A DNA stretch of 44,980 nt, taken from Singulisphaera sp. GTDB taxonomy: Bacteria > Planctomycetota > Planctomycetia > Isosphaerales > Isosphaeraceae. The notes beneath the pieces are model-generated. The model saw only the letters and a program-made list of their open reading frames with translations. It was not told the DNA's origin and searched no databases. The position numbers and the translations under genes are program-made. The first letter of the stretch is position 1. Each line of letters begins with the position of its first letter. Shown here in pieces: positions 7,411 to 42,770 of this stretch. The stretch lies in contig DAIDJG010000470.1 in NCBI GenBank assembly GCA_027451445.1, forward strand, positions 1 through 44,980, written 5' to 3'.

Positions 7411-7605
7411 CTAATCCTCGTCCGCGCGGCCGCTGGCCCACTCCGGATAGGGAACCGCGAGACCCTTGCGCGCCCGCCACAGAATGCGATTGAGGACGCC
7501 TTCCGGCGCCCGGTCGACCTCACGGAGCGGAGTCTGGCCTGGCATCACGGCAGGGTAGTTTGCGAAGTCTGCGTTAATTCCTTGGTGCTCTAACCCGCCC
7601 CATCA
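7411..7605 (-). pseudogene. Relic: C-terminal end of a beta-propeller phosphoesterase paralogue
   Basis: On the minus strand this reads to a TAG at 7411-7413 and encodes REVDRAPEGVLNRILWRARK..PYPEWASGRADED, the same C-terminus as the gene at 22294-24969. At DNA level 7411-7527 matches 22294-22410 with only about five differences, and similarity stops sharply on both sides. An in-frame stop near 7605 limits the fragment to ~60 codons with no start. It is a partial copy, not a functional gene. The rest of 7145-7860 holds no gene I can support. Confidence 0.8.
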
Positions 7606-22293: not shown

Positions 22294-24969
22294 TTAATCA
22301 TCGTCCGCGCGGCCGCTTGCCCACTCCGGATAGGGAACCGCGAGACCCTTGCGCGCCCGCCACAGAATGCGATTGAGGACGCCTTCCGGCGCCCGGTCGA
22401 CCTCTCGGAAATTGAGCTGTGCGGAGACGAGAGCGTCCTTCTTGAGGATCACATCCCGGATCGCCTTCGGATCGGGATTCATCTGATCGAGCGGCACGAG
22501 GTTGGCAACCGAGCGAAACGGTCGGCAATCCGGTGTATCGGTGAAACAATCGAACAACGGTGTGGCACTGGCGTCGAACTGGTTCATCGGTGGCAGGCCG
22601 AGGATCTGCTCGATCGTGCGGATGAGGCTGGTGGTGTTGTACTGGGTGCTGACCACGGCGTTACGCCTGGCGTAGGGACTGGCGCAATAGGCTGTCGTGC
22701 GATAACCGCTGACATGGTCCCAACCGGCTTGCGGGTCGTCCTCGATCGCGAAGATGGCCATTTTGTTCCAGAAGCGGGACTGGCTGAGGGCCTCGACGAT
22801 TCGTCCGAACGCCAGATCATTATCGGCCACGCACGAGGCGGGCGTGGGGGTGCCGGGGCTCGTGCCGCTGGTGTGATCGTTGGGGAGGCAGATGATGACA
22901 AGATTGGGGTAGGTTCCCTGCTTCTCGAATTCTTTGAGCTCCCGGATGATGAAGTCGGCGCGATACTGGTCGGGGACCGCCATTTCCCAACCCACGTACT
23001 CCGGCGGAGAAAAGGGGCGAACGGTCTCGAGCGCCGGCTCACTCTCAAAAATCACCTCTCGCGTTTCCCCCTTCCAGGTGCGGTAGCAGTCGAGATACCG
23101 GGGCGCTCCCTTCCGGGTCGCGTCGCGCCAGCGGACCTTCGGCATCATGAATTCGCCGTAGTTCCGGATCGTCTTCCCATGGGCGAGGACGTTGTCCCAC
23201 AGGAACCCGGCGGGCGAATAGGCGAGCGCGTCCCGGTCGTCCACGCCCATGCCGTCGGGATAGCTGCGCGGAAATCCAGCGAAGCTCTTCTCCATGTAAT
23301 CCGTGCTGAACGCCGACGTGCTCCATTGGTGGCCGTCCGCGCTCAAGATCCCCGCACAGTAGGTGTTGTCGAGGAGCACGAACTCGTTGACCAGCTTGTG
23401 CTGATTCGGGGCGACGTCCGGTCCGAAGATGCAGAGGTCGGCCTGTCCTCGGCCACGCTCGATCGTGCCGAAAACCTGGTCGTAGGTCCGGTTCTCCTTG
23501 ATCACATAGACGACGTGTTCGATTAGACTGGGTTCGCCGATCCGTTCGGGAATGGCCCGCGGGCTCTGGTCCTTGCGGGCTGGCAACGCGGCCTGGGCGA
23601 TGGCGCCTCGGCGCAGGTTCCGGGCGGCGCGCTCCGAGAGCCTGGGCAGATCGTCCGGAGAAGGCAACGGCATCAACGACACCGATCCGTGGTAATGGTG
23701 TGAGTTGAAGCCCTTCACCCCGTCGCTCCGCGTTTTCGGCATGGTCGGCAGTCCCTTGATGTTGGCGACGTACACCGACTTGCGTTGCGCATCGAACGCG
23801 ATCGCGCCGGGAAACCAGCCGGCGGGGATCAGGCCCTCGAGCTTCGTGTCACCCTTGTCGTCGGGCTCGAAGTGAAAGACGGCGACGGCATTCTGGGTCC
23901 CGTTCGCGACGAACAGCCTGCGTCCGGAATCGTCGAACGCCAGCGCATTGGGTGACGCCCCGAACAGGTCGGAGGGCTTGTCCTTCGCCCAGACCGTCTC
24001 GACGACCGCTTCCCGGGCCGTGTCGATGATGCTCAGGTGGTCGCTCCCCGCGTTGGCGCACACGACGAACCGGCCGTCGCGCGAGACCGCCAGGGCGGAG
24101 GCGTGCAGGCCCGTTGCGAGTTCCCGCGAAGCGCGGTCGCCCGTCAGATCGATGATGCTTACGGAACCTTCGCTGGCGATGTGCCGGACCGGGTCGACGC
24201 GTGCTTCGGTTCCCCGCCCGGCCGGGCCGGTCAGGTCACCGGGGGCGGGCCGGCGGCCACCCCAGTTGCTGACGAAGGCTTTGCCGTTCGCCAGCACAAC
24301 GTCGTAGGGAGCGACCCCCACAGCCCAGGCGCGGAGCAGCGCACCGTCGGCGGTGTTCAGTTCCAGGAGCGTGTTGGAAAGATTGCCGCACACATAGAGC
24401 CGAGTATCGTCGTCCGACGGCGCCAGGCCGCTGGGGATCTCCTTCTTGCGCCTCGATGCCTTCGCGTCCGGCAGGCCGATGACGTGTGAGGGTTGAATCG
24501 CGCCGTCGTCGGCCGCGGCGAAGACCTTGATCGAGCCGTCGACGTTGCTCAGATAGACGCGCTTGCCGTCGTGCGAGAACTTCAACCCCGTGTAACTCAC
24601 CTGCCCCTTGCGATCCGGATTGAGAATGTTGGGCGAAACCACGTCCGGCGGTTGCTGCTGGTTCTCTGATGGAAGGCCGACGCGCTGCACGACTTTCGCT
24701 TGATCGACGTCGATCACGAGCAATTCACTGGTCTTACCCGACACGAGGAGTCGCCTGCCGTTCGGCGACAACGCCAGCGCCTGGGGACGCAGACCGGCAA
24801 GTTCCACCTGCCGGCCATAGGGAGTGAGAACCTGATTGACGGGAGTGCTGATCAGGTCGTCTCGCCAACGCCCGACACGATCCGTGGTCGTTTCGAACGC
24901 GGGCTCTTGAGCGAGGGCTGCGGACGCCAAAACCATCCAGCACGACAGAAGAGTCCAGCCGCGGATCAT
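22294..24969 (-). CDS. YncE-like beta-propeller fused to phosphoesterase (phospholipase C/acid phosphatase superfamily)
   Basis: 891 aa. Start at ATG 24969, preceded by GGAGGCAATC; signal peptide MIRGWTLLSCWMVLASAALA. Residues ~45-450 form a lactonase/YncE-type seven-bladed propeller (ALALSPNGRRLLVSG, GLKFSHDGKRVYLSN, ALAVSRDGRFVVCAN, ALAFDDSGRRLFVAN). The rest is a phosphoesterase of the alkaline-phosphatase superfamily: HVVYVIKENRTYDQVFG, LLDNTYCAGILSADGHQW, ICLPNDHTSG and AIFAIEDDPQAGWDHVSGY supply metal and nucleophile-type residues. The substrate is probably a phosphate ester in the periplasm. A 113-117-bp copy of its 3' end lies at 7411-7527. The GNAT gene is upstream by 129 nt on the same strand. 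Confidence 0.88.
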   Translation of the reverse strand: MIRGWTLLSCWMVLASAALAQEPAFETTTDRVGRWRDDLISTPVNQVLTPYGRQVELAGLRPQALALSPNGRRLLVSGKTSELLVIDVDQAKVVQRVGLPSENQQQPPDVVSPNILNPDRKGQVSYTGLKFSHDGKRVYLSNVDGSIKVFAAADDGAIQPSHVIGLPDAKASRRKKEIPSGLAPSDDDTRLYVCGNLSNTLLELNTADGALLRAWAVGVAPYDVVLANGKAFVSNWGGRRPAPGDLTGPAGRGTEARVDPVRHIASEGSVSIIDLTGDRASRELATGLHASALAVSRDGRFVVCANAGSDHLSIIDTAREAVVETVWAKDKPSDLFGASPNALAFDDSGRRLFVANGTQNAVAVFHFEPDDKGDTKLEGLIPAGWFPGAIAFDAQRKSVYVANIKGLPTMPKTRSDGVKGFNSHHYHGSVSLMPLPSPDDLPRLSERAARNLRRGAIAQAALPARKDQSPRAIPERIGEPSLIEHVVYVIKENRTYDQVFGTIERGRGQADLCIFGPDVAPNQHKLVNEFVLLDNTYCAGILSADGHQWSTSAFSTDYMEKSFAGFPRSYPDGMGVDDRDALAYSPAGFLWDNVLAHGKTIRNYGEFMMPKVRWRDATRKGAPRYLDCYRTWKGETREVIFESEPALETVRPFSPPEYVGWEMAVPDQYRADFIIRELKEFEKQGTYPNLVIICLPNDHTSGTSPGTPTPASCVADNDLAFGRIVEALSQSRFWNKMAIFAIEDDPQAGWDHVSGYRTTAYCASPYARRNAVVSTQYNTTSLIRTIEQILGLPPMNQFDASATPLFDCFTDTPDCRPFRSVANLVPLDQMNPDPKAIRDVILKKDALVSAQLNFREVDRAPEGVLNRILWRARKGLAVPYPEWASGRADDD

Positions 24970-25098: not shown

Positions 25099-26118
25099 CT
25101 ATGTATAAACATAGTCAGCTTCAAGGGGCGTCAGATGGACGACCGCGCCGGCGGGAACCAGGCCCTGCTTATCGCGGAGGCGGAACTCCAACCCATGCCT
25201 CGAGGCAAACCCGCAGGCCTGGAGGGCGTGGGCCGACCAGCCGGTGCTGGCGAACCCGACGGCGGAGCTGGCCCCCTGCTCGGCCAGAGCGTCAGTCAGC
25301 GCGCGATATGCGGAGTGCCAGAGGTCGAGATCGGAGGTGTCGAGCACGCAGTCGACGATCTTGCCCACGTGCGCTCCCCCCTGCTCTACAAGGCTGAGCA
25401 GGCCGAACCCGCGGACATTTCCCGCGTGCAAGAGGAGCCCGCCGGTGATCCCCCCGCGAGGGTAGCGCAGCATGTGGTTCAGCAGAGGGGGCCGGCGGTC
25501 GGTGAACAGGGCGAGGTGCCGGTAGGCGTCGAGGATGGGAAGGATCTCGGGACCAAACGCGTCCAGGCGCTGGAATTCGAGCGTGGTCCGGGGCTTTTGC
25601 GGGGGATTCTGAACGTTCCGTACCAGGTCCCGGGCCCAGCGGGCGACCTTCCCCTGGCGAAGGGCCAGGGCGGGGCGCAGGACTCTTTGAAAGACGGGGA
25701 CCATCCCGATGAGCCGGTAGCCCCCTCCCCCGCCGACGGATCGTCCCGCGTTGCTGCCGCCCAGGCCATAACCCGTCGCGACCCCTTGATGGGCGCGCAG
25801 CAACAGCCGGGCGCCGATCCCCGAGCCGGGTCGAGCCGAGAGCCAGTCGATCATGTGCAGGGTCGAGACTTCGCCTCCGGGCAAGCCGTCGCCGAGGAAG
25901 GCGCCCGTGGTCAATCCGAGGTGGCCGACGATCTGGTCGTCTTCGCGCGCGATCCAGCTCCGGGGGACGTCGAGGCTGCCCCTTGGGTCGAAATACTTCC
26001 AGCGCAGGACGTCGGGGGCCGCGAAGGGGGCATCGGGAGCCGTCCCGAACCCCTGGGTCAGGAAGCGGCTGAGGGCGGAAAGGTCGTCGGGTACGAGCGG
26101 GCGGATTTCGAAGGCCAT
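25099..26118 (-). CDS. GNAT-like acetyltransferase
   Basis: 339 aa from ATG at 26118 (MAFEIRPLVPDDLSALSRFL). The acetyl-CoA-binding loop is recognisable as ARPGSGIGARLLLRAH (R-x-G-x-G-I/A pattern), preceded by IVGHLGLTTG. The second half (from ~residue 190) resembles another acyltransferase-like half (LLLHAGNVRGFGLLSLVE), so it may be a two-domain GNAT. No SD sequence is obvious: the start codon lies just inside the flank of the inverted-repeat element at 26123-26549, whose end may provide the leader. Substrate unknown. Confidence 0.72.
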   Translation of the reverse strand: MAFEIRPLVPDDLSALSRFLTQGFGTAPDAPFAAPDVLRWKYFDPRGSLDVPRSWIAREDDQIVGHLGLTTGAFLGDGLPGGEVSTLHMIDWLSARPGSGIGARLLLRAHQGVATGYGLGGSNAGRSVGGGGGYRLIGMVPVFQRVLRPALALRQGKVARWARDLVRNVQNPPQKPRTTLEFQRLDAFGPEILPILDAYRHLALFTDRRPPLLNHMLRYPRGGITGGLLLHAGNVRGFGLLSLVEQGGAHVGKIVDCVLDTSDLDLWHSAYRALTDALAEQGASSAVGFASTGWSAHALQACGFASRHGLEFRLRDKQGLVPAGAVVHLTPLEADYVYT

Positions 26119-26238
26119 GCGGGCTAAATAACCTTGCGGGAACTTGGGACGCGCCTGGAGACGCGGCTTCTGTTTGAACATATAGTTGGTGTCTGTACCG
26201 ACATGGTTTAACCCGAGGCGCATCGCCCGCCATCACAC

Positions 26239-26283
26239 GACCGCAGCCACCTTGTGTGGCTGGTGAAGGAGGTCGCAAGCTAG
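26239..26283 (+). repeat. 45-bp hairpin unit 1
   Basis: Stem CAGCCAC / GTGGCTG with loop CTTGT, followed by a TGAAGGAGGTC segment and ending CTAG. Same orientation as unit 2, opposite to units 3 and 4. Confidence 0.8.
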
Positions 26284-26304
26284 ACGCGTTGCATCAGCGC
26301 GTAC

Positions 26305-26349
26305 GACCCCACCCGCCTTGTGCGGGTGGTGAAGAAGGTCTGCGGCTAG
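26305..26349 (+). repeat. 45-bp hairpin unit 2 (compensated stem)
   Basis: Stem CCACCCGC / GCGGGTGG with loop CTTGT. Relative to unit 1 both arms changed together, so base pairing is kept. Confidence 0.8.
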
Positions 26350-26360
26350 ACAACCCGTCT

Positions 26361-26405
26361 CTAGCCATAGACCTCCTTCACCAGCCACGCAAGGTGGCTG
26401 GGGTC
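26361..26405 (-). repeat. 45-bp hairpin unit 3
   Basis: Inverted orientation; stem CCAGCCAC / GTGGCTGG with loop GCAAG as read on the plus strand. Identical over 45 bp to unit 4. Confidence 0.8.
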
Positions 26406-26444
26406 GAGGAACACGATACAAGGCATGATCCGCGAGGGGCTGGG

Positions 26445-26489
26445 CTAGCCATAGACCTCCTTCACCAGCCACGCAAGGTGGCTGGGGTC
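26445..26489 (-). repeat. 45-bp hairpin unit 4
   Basis: Exact copy of unit 3 in the same orientation, separated from it by 39 bp of unrelated sequence. Confidence 0.8.
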
Positions 26490-26612
26490 GGGGAGGCATG
26501 ACGCCAGCGTGCCGTCTCGCGTGTCCCAAGTTCGTGCAAGGTTATTTAGCGTACCATGAAACCCAGGGCGCACGATCCTGAGTTTCGACGTCGCAGGCGC
26601 CGTACGATCGCG

Positions 26613-27359
26613 TTAGTTCGCCCCGTTGGCGTGCCTGGGGCCGATGTGCCGGATGATGTCGCCTTCGTTCAGGTAGATCACGGCCTCGGCGATGTTCGTG
26701 GCGTGGTCGGCGATCCGCTCCAGGTTGCGGGCGGTGTTGATCAGGCGGAGCCAGTTGTCGACGCGCTCGGGGTCGCGGCGGATTTCCTGTTTGAGATCCT
26801 TCAGAACCAGCCGGTAGTGATGATCGATGCGGCGGTCGGCGGCGATGACCTCGCGTGCCAGCATCGAATCGCTCTTGGCCACGGCGTCGAGGCCGCTATG
26901 AACCTGGTCCAGGGCCTCGATGGCCATCGCTTCGAGCGGCTCGGGGATGGGAAAGGCCTCAGGATCGTTGGACAGCTTCCGGACGCGCTTGGCGATGTGC
27001 CGCGCCAGGTCGCCCATGCGTTCGAGGTCGCCGTTGATCTTCAGCACCGCGGCAACCCGCCTCAGGTCCGAGGCCACCGGCTGGTGCAGGGCCAGCACCT
27101 TCAGGCAGGCGCGCTCGATCTCGACCTCCCAGCGGTCGACGGTCGCCTCCTCCTGTCTCACCCCCCTGGCGAGGTCGGGTCGACCCTCGCACAAAGCGCG
27201 AACGCTCTGGTTGAGGGCATCCTCAACGACCGCAGCCAGCTTCAAGACACCCGTCCAAAGTCCTTCGAGGTCTCGCAGGAAGTGCCGGCCCAGGGTCACC
27301 CGCTCCACGTCCCAGCCCGATCCTTGGTACCGCCCAGACCGCTGTCCACCAGGTTCCAT
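26613..27359 (-). CDS. phoU: PhoU-like phosphate-signalling protein
   Basis: 248 aa from ATG at 27359 (AAAGGA upstream). Two PhoU helical repeats are seen. Repeat one contains HQPVASDLRRVAAVLKIN then GDLERMGDLARHIAKRV; repeat two contains LINTARNLERIADHATNIAEAVIYL, whose E/D-x-x-D pattern is the metal-binding signature of the fold. PhoU links the Pst phosphate transporter to the PhoR kinase and dampens the phosphate-starvation response. No pst or phoBR genes lie in the window. A second PhoU gene (32038-32772) has a parallel C-terminus (GDIIRHIGPRHA versus GRIIRHVGAHRV), so they look like paralogues. Confidence 0.92.
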   Translation of the reverse strand: MEPGGQRSGRYQGSGWDVERVTLGRHFLRDLEGLWTGVLKLAAVVEDALNQSVRALCEGRPDLARGVRQEEATVDRWEVEIERACLKVLALHQPVASDLRRVAAVLKINGDLERMGDLARHIAKRVRKLSNDPEAFPIPEPLEAMAIEALDQVHSGLDAVAKSDSMLAREVIAADRRIDHHYRLVLKDLKQEIRRDPERVDNWLRLINTARNLERIADHATNIAEAVIYLNEGDIIRHIGPRHANGAN

Positions 27360-27612
27360 CGACCGATCCTTTCGGGCCTCGTTGCCCGCTGCCTCGCGAT
27401 GTCCGTCCTGTGCGAATGCGAGAGACCGTGACCCCCGCACGGTCCCCTTATCCCTTCAACTTTACCCCGCATGACGCGCTCTGACAACCGATAACTACGT
27501 CACTCCCCGAGAAATTCATATTTTCTTCTCAAACGCGTATAGAGTCTCGTGGGCGCGGTCGACCCATGCCGGGGCACCCTTTTGGTATTTGCGCAATGGC
27601 CGCGACGTCGCG

Positions 27613-27754
27613 AACCCCTCACCCCGCCGCTGTGCGGCGACCCTCTCCCACAAGGGGAGAGGGGTGTTTTTCCGTCTGCGAGCGGTAGAAGCCAAAAACA
27701 CACCTCTCCCCTTGTGGGAGAGGTCGGCCCTCAACGAGGGCCGGGTGAGGGGTG
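27613..27754. repeat. Nested inverted repeat
   Basis: Outer arms AACCCCTCACCC (27613-27624) and GGGTGAGGGGTG (27743-27754) enclose inner arms at about 27644-27666 and 27701-27722, which are near-perfect reverse complements over 20 bp. Each inner arm is itself a hairpin (CTCTCCC-ACAAG-GGGAGAG). Similar CTCACCC/CTCTCCCAC intergenic repeats are common in bacterial genomes. Confidence 0.75.
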
Positions 27755-27770
27755 TGAACGAGACCGTCCG
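27729..27770 (+). repeat. 42-bp direct repeat, copy 1 (copy 2 at 27816-27857)
   Basis: Both copies begin CCTCAACGAGGG and continue GGGTGAGGGGTGTGAACG; they differ at two of 42 positions and lie 87 bp apart. Copy 1 overlaps the right arm of the nested inverted repeat. Confidence 0.8.
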
Positions 27771-27786
27771 CCCGCCGGTTGGGTAG

Positions 27787-29586
<1,800 letters not shown>

Positions 29587-41648: not shown

Positions 41649-41818
41649 AGGTCGGCTCCTCTCCGTACGCAAGGGCCTGAAGTTCGTCATCGTTGAACCG
41701 AGTTCCAGTCACAAGACGAGTACTTCAGGGCAGGCAATGCGACCTTGCCTCGGCGGAGCCGGCCACACGGTACGATTGCGCCGTCAACGGCCGATAAGTT
41801 GATGAATCGAAAGAATCA

Positions 41819-41912
41819 GACGACGTTTCGCTCAGGGGAGTTGGCATCGGAGTCCGATGGTGGGTCTTCCGCGAGCGTCGAAGCGCGGTTTCGCCGTGCT
41901 CGACTTCACGTT
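41819..41912 (+). repeat. 94-bp direct repeat, left copy
   Basis: Matches 42636-42729 in the same orientation at about 84 of 94 positions, beginning GACGACGTTTCGCTCAGG in the right copy. It lies upstream of the second VapBC module. Confidence 0.85.
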
Positions 41913-41988
41913 GCATTACGCGTCCTACTGGCGCTCGTCTTCTTAATTTTTCCGATCCGCGATACAATCCACTCAGGAGGAAACCTCT

Positions 41989-42593: not shown

Positions 42594-42635
42594 CCCATCG
42601 TTCCGCTCGCATCATTTCCCTGATCCTTCTGATCC

Positions 42636-42729
42636 GACGACGTTTCGCTCAGGAGAGTTGGCGTCGGAGTCCAATGGAGGGACATCCGCGCGCGTCGAAG
42701 CGCGGTTTCGCGGTGCTCGACTCCAAGTT
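42636..42729 (+). repeat. 94-bp direct repeat, right copy
   Basis: Right-hand copy of the repeat at 41819-41912; it starts 43 nt after the toxin stop. The complementary strand of both copies stays open and would encode ETALRR..TPTPxLSETSSD, but without a start or domain. Confidence 0.85.
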
Positions 42730-42770
42730 CCAATGCCTGTCCCAATAGAGAGTCTTCTTGAGGAAGCCGT

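Follow-up and report, generated by a model that had tools for sequence, protein, structure and literature searches.

A 426-bp miniature transposon with REP-like hairpin units in a planctomycete genome

The miniature transposon of the window and its insertion site

Between a phoU-like gene and an acetyltransferase gene, both on the minus strand, the planctomycete window analysed here (the whole stretch of 44,980 nucleotides) contains a group of hairpins enclosed by inverted repeats, which raises the question of what kind of element this is and to which enzyme, if any, its hairpins belong. Positions 26124-26549 are a non-coding miniature transposon (MITE) of 426 bp, within which no transposase ORF was found (Table 1). 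Its inverted termini (26123-26154 and 26519-26550) show 91% complementarity over 32 nt; an earlier inspection of the letters, hereafter the sequence-only reading, had seen these ends but gave them 27 bp with 25 matches. The four units between the terminal inverted repeats (TIRs) show the order ++--, which agrees with the two-and-two opposed layout described there, but they measure 46 nt by HMM/CM boundaries and not 45. Units 3 and 4 are the same over all 46 nt, as had been claimed, and the stem of unit 2 is indeed changed on both arms (CCACCCGC/GCGGGTGG vs CCAGCCAC/GTGGCTGG in units 3 and 4). The pattern is confirmed to be well beyond chance: the TIR motif occurs twice in the 45-kb window vs 0.05 expected and the unit foot motif four times vs 0.15 expected, none of either outside the element, and the single-strand fold of the whole element is about 15 SD better than shuffles. 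With 15 occurrences where 149 are expected, the tetranucleotide CTAG is depleted about tenfold in the window; unit feet account for four of these 15.

Table 1. Positions of the element, its parts and neighbour genes in the window, and of the tandem Y1 transposases in other loci
Feature	Position	Strand	Remarks
Whole element with CTAG target context, C-TA-[AATAACC ... GGTTATT]-TA-G	26122..26551	.	TIRs, flanking TA, own-genome relatives, L039 filled/empty site
Left terminal inverted repeat (TIR1), long-arm side	26124..26154	+	5 bp upstream of neighbour start codon
Right terminal inverted repeat (TIR1), short-arm side	26519..26549	-	
REP-like hairpin unit 1	26238..26283	+	Stem CAGCCAC/GTGGCTG, bulge TGAAGGA, foot CTAG at 26280
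REP-like hairpin unit 2	26304..26349	+	Stem CCACCCGC/GCGGGTGG, bulge TGAAGAA, foot CTAG at 26346
REP-like hairpin unit 3	26361..26406	-	Stem CCAGCCAC/GTGGCTGG, foot CTAG at 26361
REP-like hairpin unit 4	26445..26490	-	46-nt identity with unit 3, foot CTAG at 26445
Neighbour gene, marginal GNAT acetyltransferase	25099..26118	-	Start codon ATG 26118-26116
phoU-like gene, upstream on same strand	26613..27440	-	PF01895, E=9.4e-40
Tandem Y1 transposases	L239:3153-4022; L199:5951-6730; L205:5773-6564; L249:956-1738; L250:1426-2328		

The start codon that had been placed right at one edge of the element is close to it (5 bp from the TIR), but the gene is only marginally a GNAT by Pfam (PF00583, E=0.0012, 19.6 bits vs a cut-off of 20.7). 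Since the element ends at this distance from the start codon, an effect on the expression of the acetyltransferase gene is possible, as far as position can indicate. In a genome of the same genus (G009), the alignment with the acetyltransferase homologue stops at the element edge; its acetyltransferase and phoU genes are in different contigs, so only the edge of the homology can be placed for the window element.

The own genome, a draft of 622 contigs, contains relatives of the window element in about 39 clusters, a family that is dispersed and diverged. The search for the unit and the ends in this genome, proposed by the sequence-only reading, gave further copies, 113 units with the covariance model and 27 matches to the TIR pattern vs 0 for the reversed control pattern, and the element is not single-copy. 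Most copies start with CTAAATAACC and end with GGTTATTTAG; they show TA at both ends and, in most cases, CTA...TAG. One site (L039) is uninterrupted in G009, ...TTGCCCCG-CTAG-CGG-GAGAACGG..., and filled in the own genome, ...TTGCCCG-CTA[AATAACC...GGTTGTT]TAG-GAGAACGG..., and, as read from these two sequences, insertion is at the TA within CTAG. L039 is the one base-exact empty site: at L059 the genes are adjacent in G043, G009 and G038 and the length of the spacer varies, so this is not a base-exact empty site. The TA in CTAG is a preferred target of IS630, according to the title of Tenzen and Ohtsubo 1991, as cited in PMC2170065.

A second end type of the own genome, TIR3 (CTAAGCAGGTCCGCAGAA), starts with CTAA like TIR1 and forms the boundaries of an element of 1138 bp that contains a DDE_3 domain, of several gene-less MITEs and of one MITE that carries units (L053). 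The transposase with the same ends that the sequence-only reading asked for was found for this sister end type; in the draft own genome no transposase gene with TIR1 ends was found, and the four DDE_3 loci of this genome are without TIR1 ends. The IS630 assignment therefore rests on the ends, the TA target and the analogy with TIR3, by which the ends of the window element are those of an IS630-type MITE. In the IS630-like TIR3 element (L146:1140-2277, G000:C277:18639-19776, ends CTAAGCAGGTCCGCAGAA) the DDE_3 reading frame is split over two frames, by a frameshift or in a programmed way. A TIR3 MITE of about 194 bp (L151:1322-1515 and L152:776-967) shows a near-perfect long internal hairpin (GGTGGCTGGGGTTCCGTCTTCGGAACCCCGG...).

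Distribution of the units and their association with a Y1 transposase gene

In the own genome the commonest layout of the units is TIR U+ U+ ... U- U- TIR. They form quartets, pairs and arrays, some within MITEs, whose ends differ, and others away from any MITE: direct pairs and triplets without TIR are found in L049, L057, L058 and L064, and L040, L041, L042 and L050 show perfectly palindromic units, in which two opposed units are fused at the loop, a structure that central deletions between inverted copies would produce. At least seven units show another small element, of four end types in all, inserted precisely at the CTAG foot, and the CTAG feet serve as landing pads for further MITEs. 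A 171-bp MITE with TIR1-like ends and without units is present at L046:3031-3201 and L145:2972-3142, and in L046 a unit's CTAG foot is the insertion site. Three mutually similar regions of about 500 bp are each followed by a unit (L058:2501-3029, L055:2254-2811 and L061:2428-3070), which suggests that a gene was duplicated together with its unit.

In the host family (45 genomes), units were found in only one other genome, which belongs to another genus and contains a single quartet inside a third end pair (TIR2). When 84,980 species genomes were scanned with a pattern, 36 stretches came up, which belong to Planctomycetota, Lentisphaerae, Kiritimatiellae, Verrucomicrobia and related MAGs. Outside the own genome, units are grouped as quartets, doublets and arrays, and most of these have no TIRs. 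A Planctomycetota MAG shows five direct units with a period of 74-75 nt (L202:680-1022), and a Spartobacteria MAG shows an alternating -+-+-+- array with a period of 214 nt (L210:5290-5866).

At four loci from several phylum-level groups, inward-facing units flank a gene encoding a Y1 (IS200-like) transposase. A 289-aa ORF of L239 (Planctomycetota, another family) has units ++ on one side and --- on the other, whose CTAG ends point inward, and relatives of the 289-aa protein are likewise enclosed by units in L199 (Lentisphaerae), L205 (PVC bacterium) and L225 (Planctomycetota, frameshifted). The window element has the layout of an L239-type locus minus the gene. Full-length relatives of this transposase, which shows two Y1 domains in tandem, are present in three of 392 sampled Planctomycetota genomes, all of them among the four unit-bearing genomes other than the own genome; the chance of such an overlap of gene and units is about 1e-6 or less by our own arithmetic. 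None of the viral contigs shows the tandem Y1 protein. No relative of it was found in the draft own genome, so the units are only putatively mobile there at present; the nine Y1_Tnp loci of this genome have no unit within 1.5 kb, which ruled out a RAYT by proximity.

The most likely reading is that the units are REP-like hairpins that belong to an HUH transposase and have been captured by an IS630-type MITE, and that the window element is a non-autonomous IS630-type miniature transposon with a ++-- quartet of these hairpins as its body (probability about 0.77). It appears to combine two unrelated modes of movement. Of the options named by the sequence-only reading, the non-autonomous transposon is right for the ends (TIRs, TA at CTAG, no transposase ORF) and the REP-like element is right for the body (four REP-like hairpin units). 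An IS630-type transposase acting in trans would cut at the TIRs and paste the element into the TA of CTAG, and the ++-- body would probably derive from a '++ tnpA --' module which lost its gene and was then caught between IS630-type ends.

DNA transposons with several subterminal repeats are known, and in most TIR1 copies the units adjoin the TIRs symmetrically and face inward, as they would if the element were a plain IS630-type MITE, its units were subterminal repeats bound by its own DDE transposase and the link with Y1 were coincidental. We regard this as unlikely, since units are also present in the TIR3 MITE, in the TIR2-ended element of the other genus and in many TIR-free places, no unit is present in the IS630-like TIR3 element that contains the transposase domain, and the Y1 genes flanked by units recur across the groups mentioned.

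Fold and covariation of the units

An 8-bp stem closed by a 5-nt loop, a bulge of 7 nt on one side (TGAAGRA) and an outer stem of GACC/GGTC make up the unit, and a conserved GGCTAG foot follows them; the hairpin of the sequence-only reading stands, but with this bulge and outer stem it is not a simple one. In the own genome, 96.9% of the cells are paired and 23 double changes are present vs a mean of 6.7 in shuffles, all of them from three pairs. Most right-arm units of the own-genome family carry CCACCCGC/GCGGGTGG, and the stem type goes with the element arm, so the stem compensation within this genome is largely inherited. The search for the unit beyond the own genome, which had also been recommended, found related units across PVC bacteria and, in an alignment fitted to the model structure, double changes at 8 of the 12 stem pairs (105 cells vs 24.8 in shuffles), which indicates that the stem is selected as a structure. 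The claim that covariation implies selection for the hairpin was right about the selection, for which the strong evidence comes from other genomes, but the lone compensated unit of the window is weak by itself. An RNA role is not needed to account for this covariation.

Another possibility, in which copying and gene conversion spread compensated stem variants that are simply inherited and selection for the hairpin does not continue, would fit the stem types that follow the element arm and the origin of all own-genome double changes in three pairs. It has a slightly smaller chance than the preceding alternative, since pairing is kept in differing stems across PVC genomes (CATCCGG/CCGGATG, CTGCCGG/CCGGCAG and CATCCAG/CTGGATG), and in the eight full elements of the own genome that were aligned the units are far more alike (90.8% identity) than the spacers (70.2%), with the TIRs at 79.2%. 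Least probable of all is the structured RNA element that the sequence-only reading also offered, in which hairpins transcribed by read-through from the phoU-like to the acetyltransferase gene would control RNA stability or translation and select the stems: the compensated stems, the strong RNA folding and the location between co-oriented genes just before a start codon agree with it, but the contexts of the unit copies are unrelated, both orientations occur and some copies form tandem arrays, the units track the gene of a single-stranded DNA transposase in other genomes, Rfam gave no family at the gathering score (only sub-threshold chance microRNA matches) and no terminator or sigma-70-like promoter signal was found in the element, so the proposal gained no support. 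A secondary effect of the units on neighbour genes is possible.

The tandem Y1 transposase and comparison with known systems

The transposases linked to units have 260-300 aa and contain the two Y1 domains in tandem. Pfam Y1_Tnp (PF01797) matches the C-terminal half (2.5e-13 and 1.9e-11), and NCBIfam REP_Tyr reaches 21.7 bits vs a cut-off of 80. The profile of the N-terminal half alone finds IS608 TnpA in the PDB (2a6m, E=5.9e-9): the two HUH histidines are replaced in this domain, and the catalytic Tyr127 and Gln131 of IS608 align with Y140 and Q144. The C-terminal half matches IS200 enzymes, keeps the HUH motif and ends before the tyrosine helix in four of the five proteins; Y140, Q144, H231 and H233 are invariant in the five. 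In AlphaFold models built with the alignment of five (pLDDT about 61-63), IS200 enzymes of the PDB rank first for the C-domain (Z 12-13.6) and for the N-domain modelled alone (Z 8.4). Since the active site of IS608 takes the HUH from one subunit and the tyrosine from the other, the natural interpretation is one chain that forms one composite site, and from these alignments we infer that the transposase resembles two fused copies of the usual enzyme with one shared active site. In L250 the tyrosine helix is kept in the second domain and a different hairpin type is nearby, so this protein may be nearer to the ancestral form.

The Y1 enzyme would recognise the folded single strand by its stem, bulge and conserved foot, and would cleave or join near the CTAG foot, as the TnpA-REP and IS200 enzymes do with their own hairpins; its substrate would be hairpins formed where DNA is single-stranded, as in the lagging-strand template. 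Since the enzyme is missing from the own assembly, the hairpins may now spread there mainly as passengers of MITEs. More tentative, and a little short of an even chance, is the proposal that these transposases are an undescribed HUH class, a single-chain pseudo-dimer with one site (Tyr/Gln from domain 1, HUH from domain 2), and that the window element could be moved by either a DDE (IS630) or an HUH enzyme. The accessible part of the scheme by Quentin et al. 2018 (PMC6006769), which classifies these transposases, describes no tandem Y1 form. If this reading of the tandem Y1 protein is true, it is a natural single-chain IS608 dimer which lost one of its two active sites, and single-site action of REP-type enzymes and the domestication of IS200-type transposases become directly testable.

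The units resemble the REP/REPIN/BIME sequences and the REPtrons with TnpA-REP (RAYT) in that about 100 short imperfect palindromes with a bulge are present per genome, single and in inverted and direct groups, and flank a Y1 transposase gene, here in other genomes. The bulge is essential in the REP of E. coli (PMC8266576). Unlike canonical REPs, the units lack the 5' GT[AG]G foot and show CTAG(CC) on that strand, and their conserved foot, GGCTAG or GCTA, lies beyond the 7-nt bulge. The fused palindromic units are similar to the 'double foot' REPs, for which PMC6006769 proposes central deletion of an inverted pair. The transposase differs from the single-domain TnpA-REP (HUH, Y..NP) in its tandem Y1 domains, its Y...Q motif and its score below the REP_Tyr cut-off. 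In the same text, TnpA-Y1 class 3 is found mainly in Planctomycetes and shows a Y....Q signature and atypical flanking hairpins of up to hundreds of copies, and in these three characters (Planctomycetes, signature, many atypical hairpins flanking the gene) it is like the system described here; however, as that text gives it, class 3 has a median of 178 aa, one core domain and a CnGA foot, in contrast to 260-300 aa, two Y1 domains and a CTAG/GCTA foot. With IS200/IS605 (Y1 HUH) the transposase shares the Y1_Tnp domain, the HUH and the catalytic tyrosine, here split over two domains, but IS200/IS605 elements, which use a tetranucleotide target, show a short gene with one left and one right hairpin, and the gene here has several inverted hairpins per side.

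The element is also like IS630-family MITEs, to which the Nezha, RUP and Correia/NEMIS types belong, in its length of a few hundred bp, its TIRs of about 30 nt, the duplication of TA, the lack of a gene and the dispersal between genes; the likeness refers to these features, and the body differs, as it is a quartet of REP-like hairpins of another transposase class. All three types are MITEs of bacteria (PMC3733652). REP sequences are insertion targets of IS elements (PMC1525189), as the units hit at their CTAG foot are here, but the inserts here are mostly IS630-type MITEs, and one such family itself carries units. The element is a variant that joins two known kinds, the IS630-type MITE and the REP-like hairpins, and behind it is a transposase of possibly undescribed architecture. 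Its units belong to an unnamed repeat family which is here linked to a transposase, and for REP-like hairpins a place inside a DDE-type miniature transposon is a route to multiply in a genome without their own enzyme. Integron attC sites and Helitron 3' ends, both considered for their likeness in hairpin and CTAG, were dropped as candidates, since no cassette layout and no helicase gene, respectively, were noticed at the unit loci.

The window contains other repeats. Positions 27642-27723 and 27729-27857 show a 30-nt inverted repeat (22-nt gap) adjoining a direct repeat of 42 nt (CCTCAACGAGGG...), which probably represent a further family of intergenic repeats. Two direct repeats are present, one of 115 nt with 97% identity and copies 15 kb apart (7412-7526 and 22295-22409) and one of 111 nt with 86% identity (41815-41925 and 42632-42742), and positions 2316-2495 contain a 36-nt tandem repeat with four copies in register.
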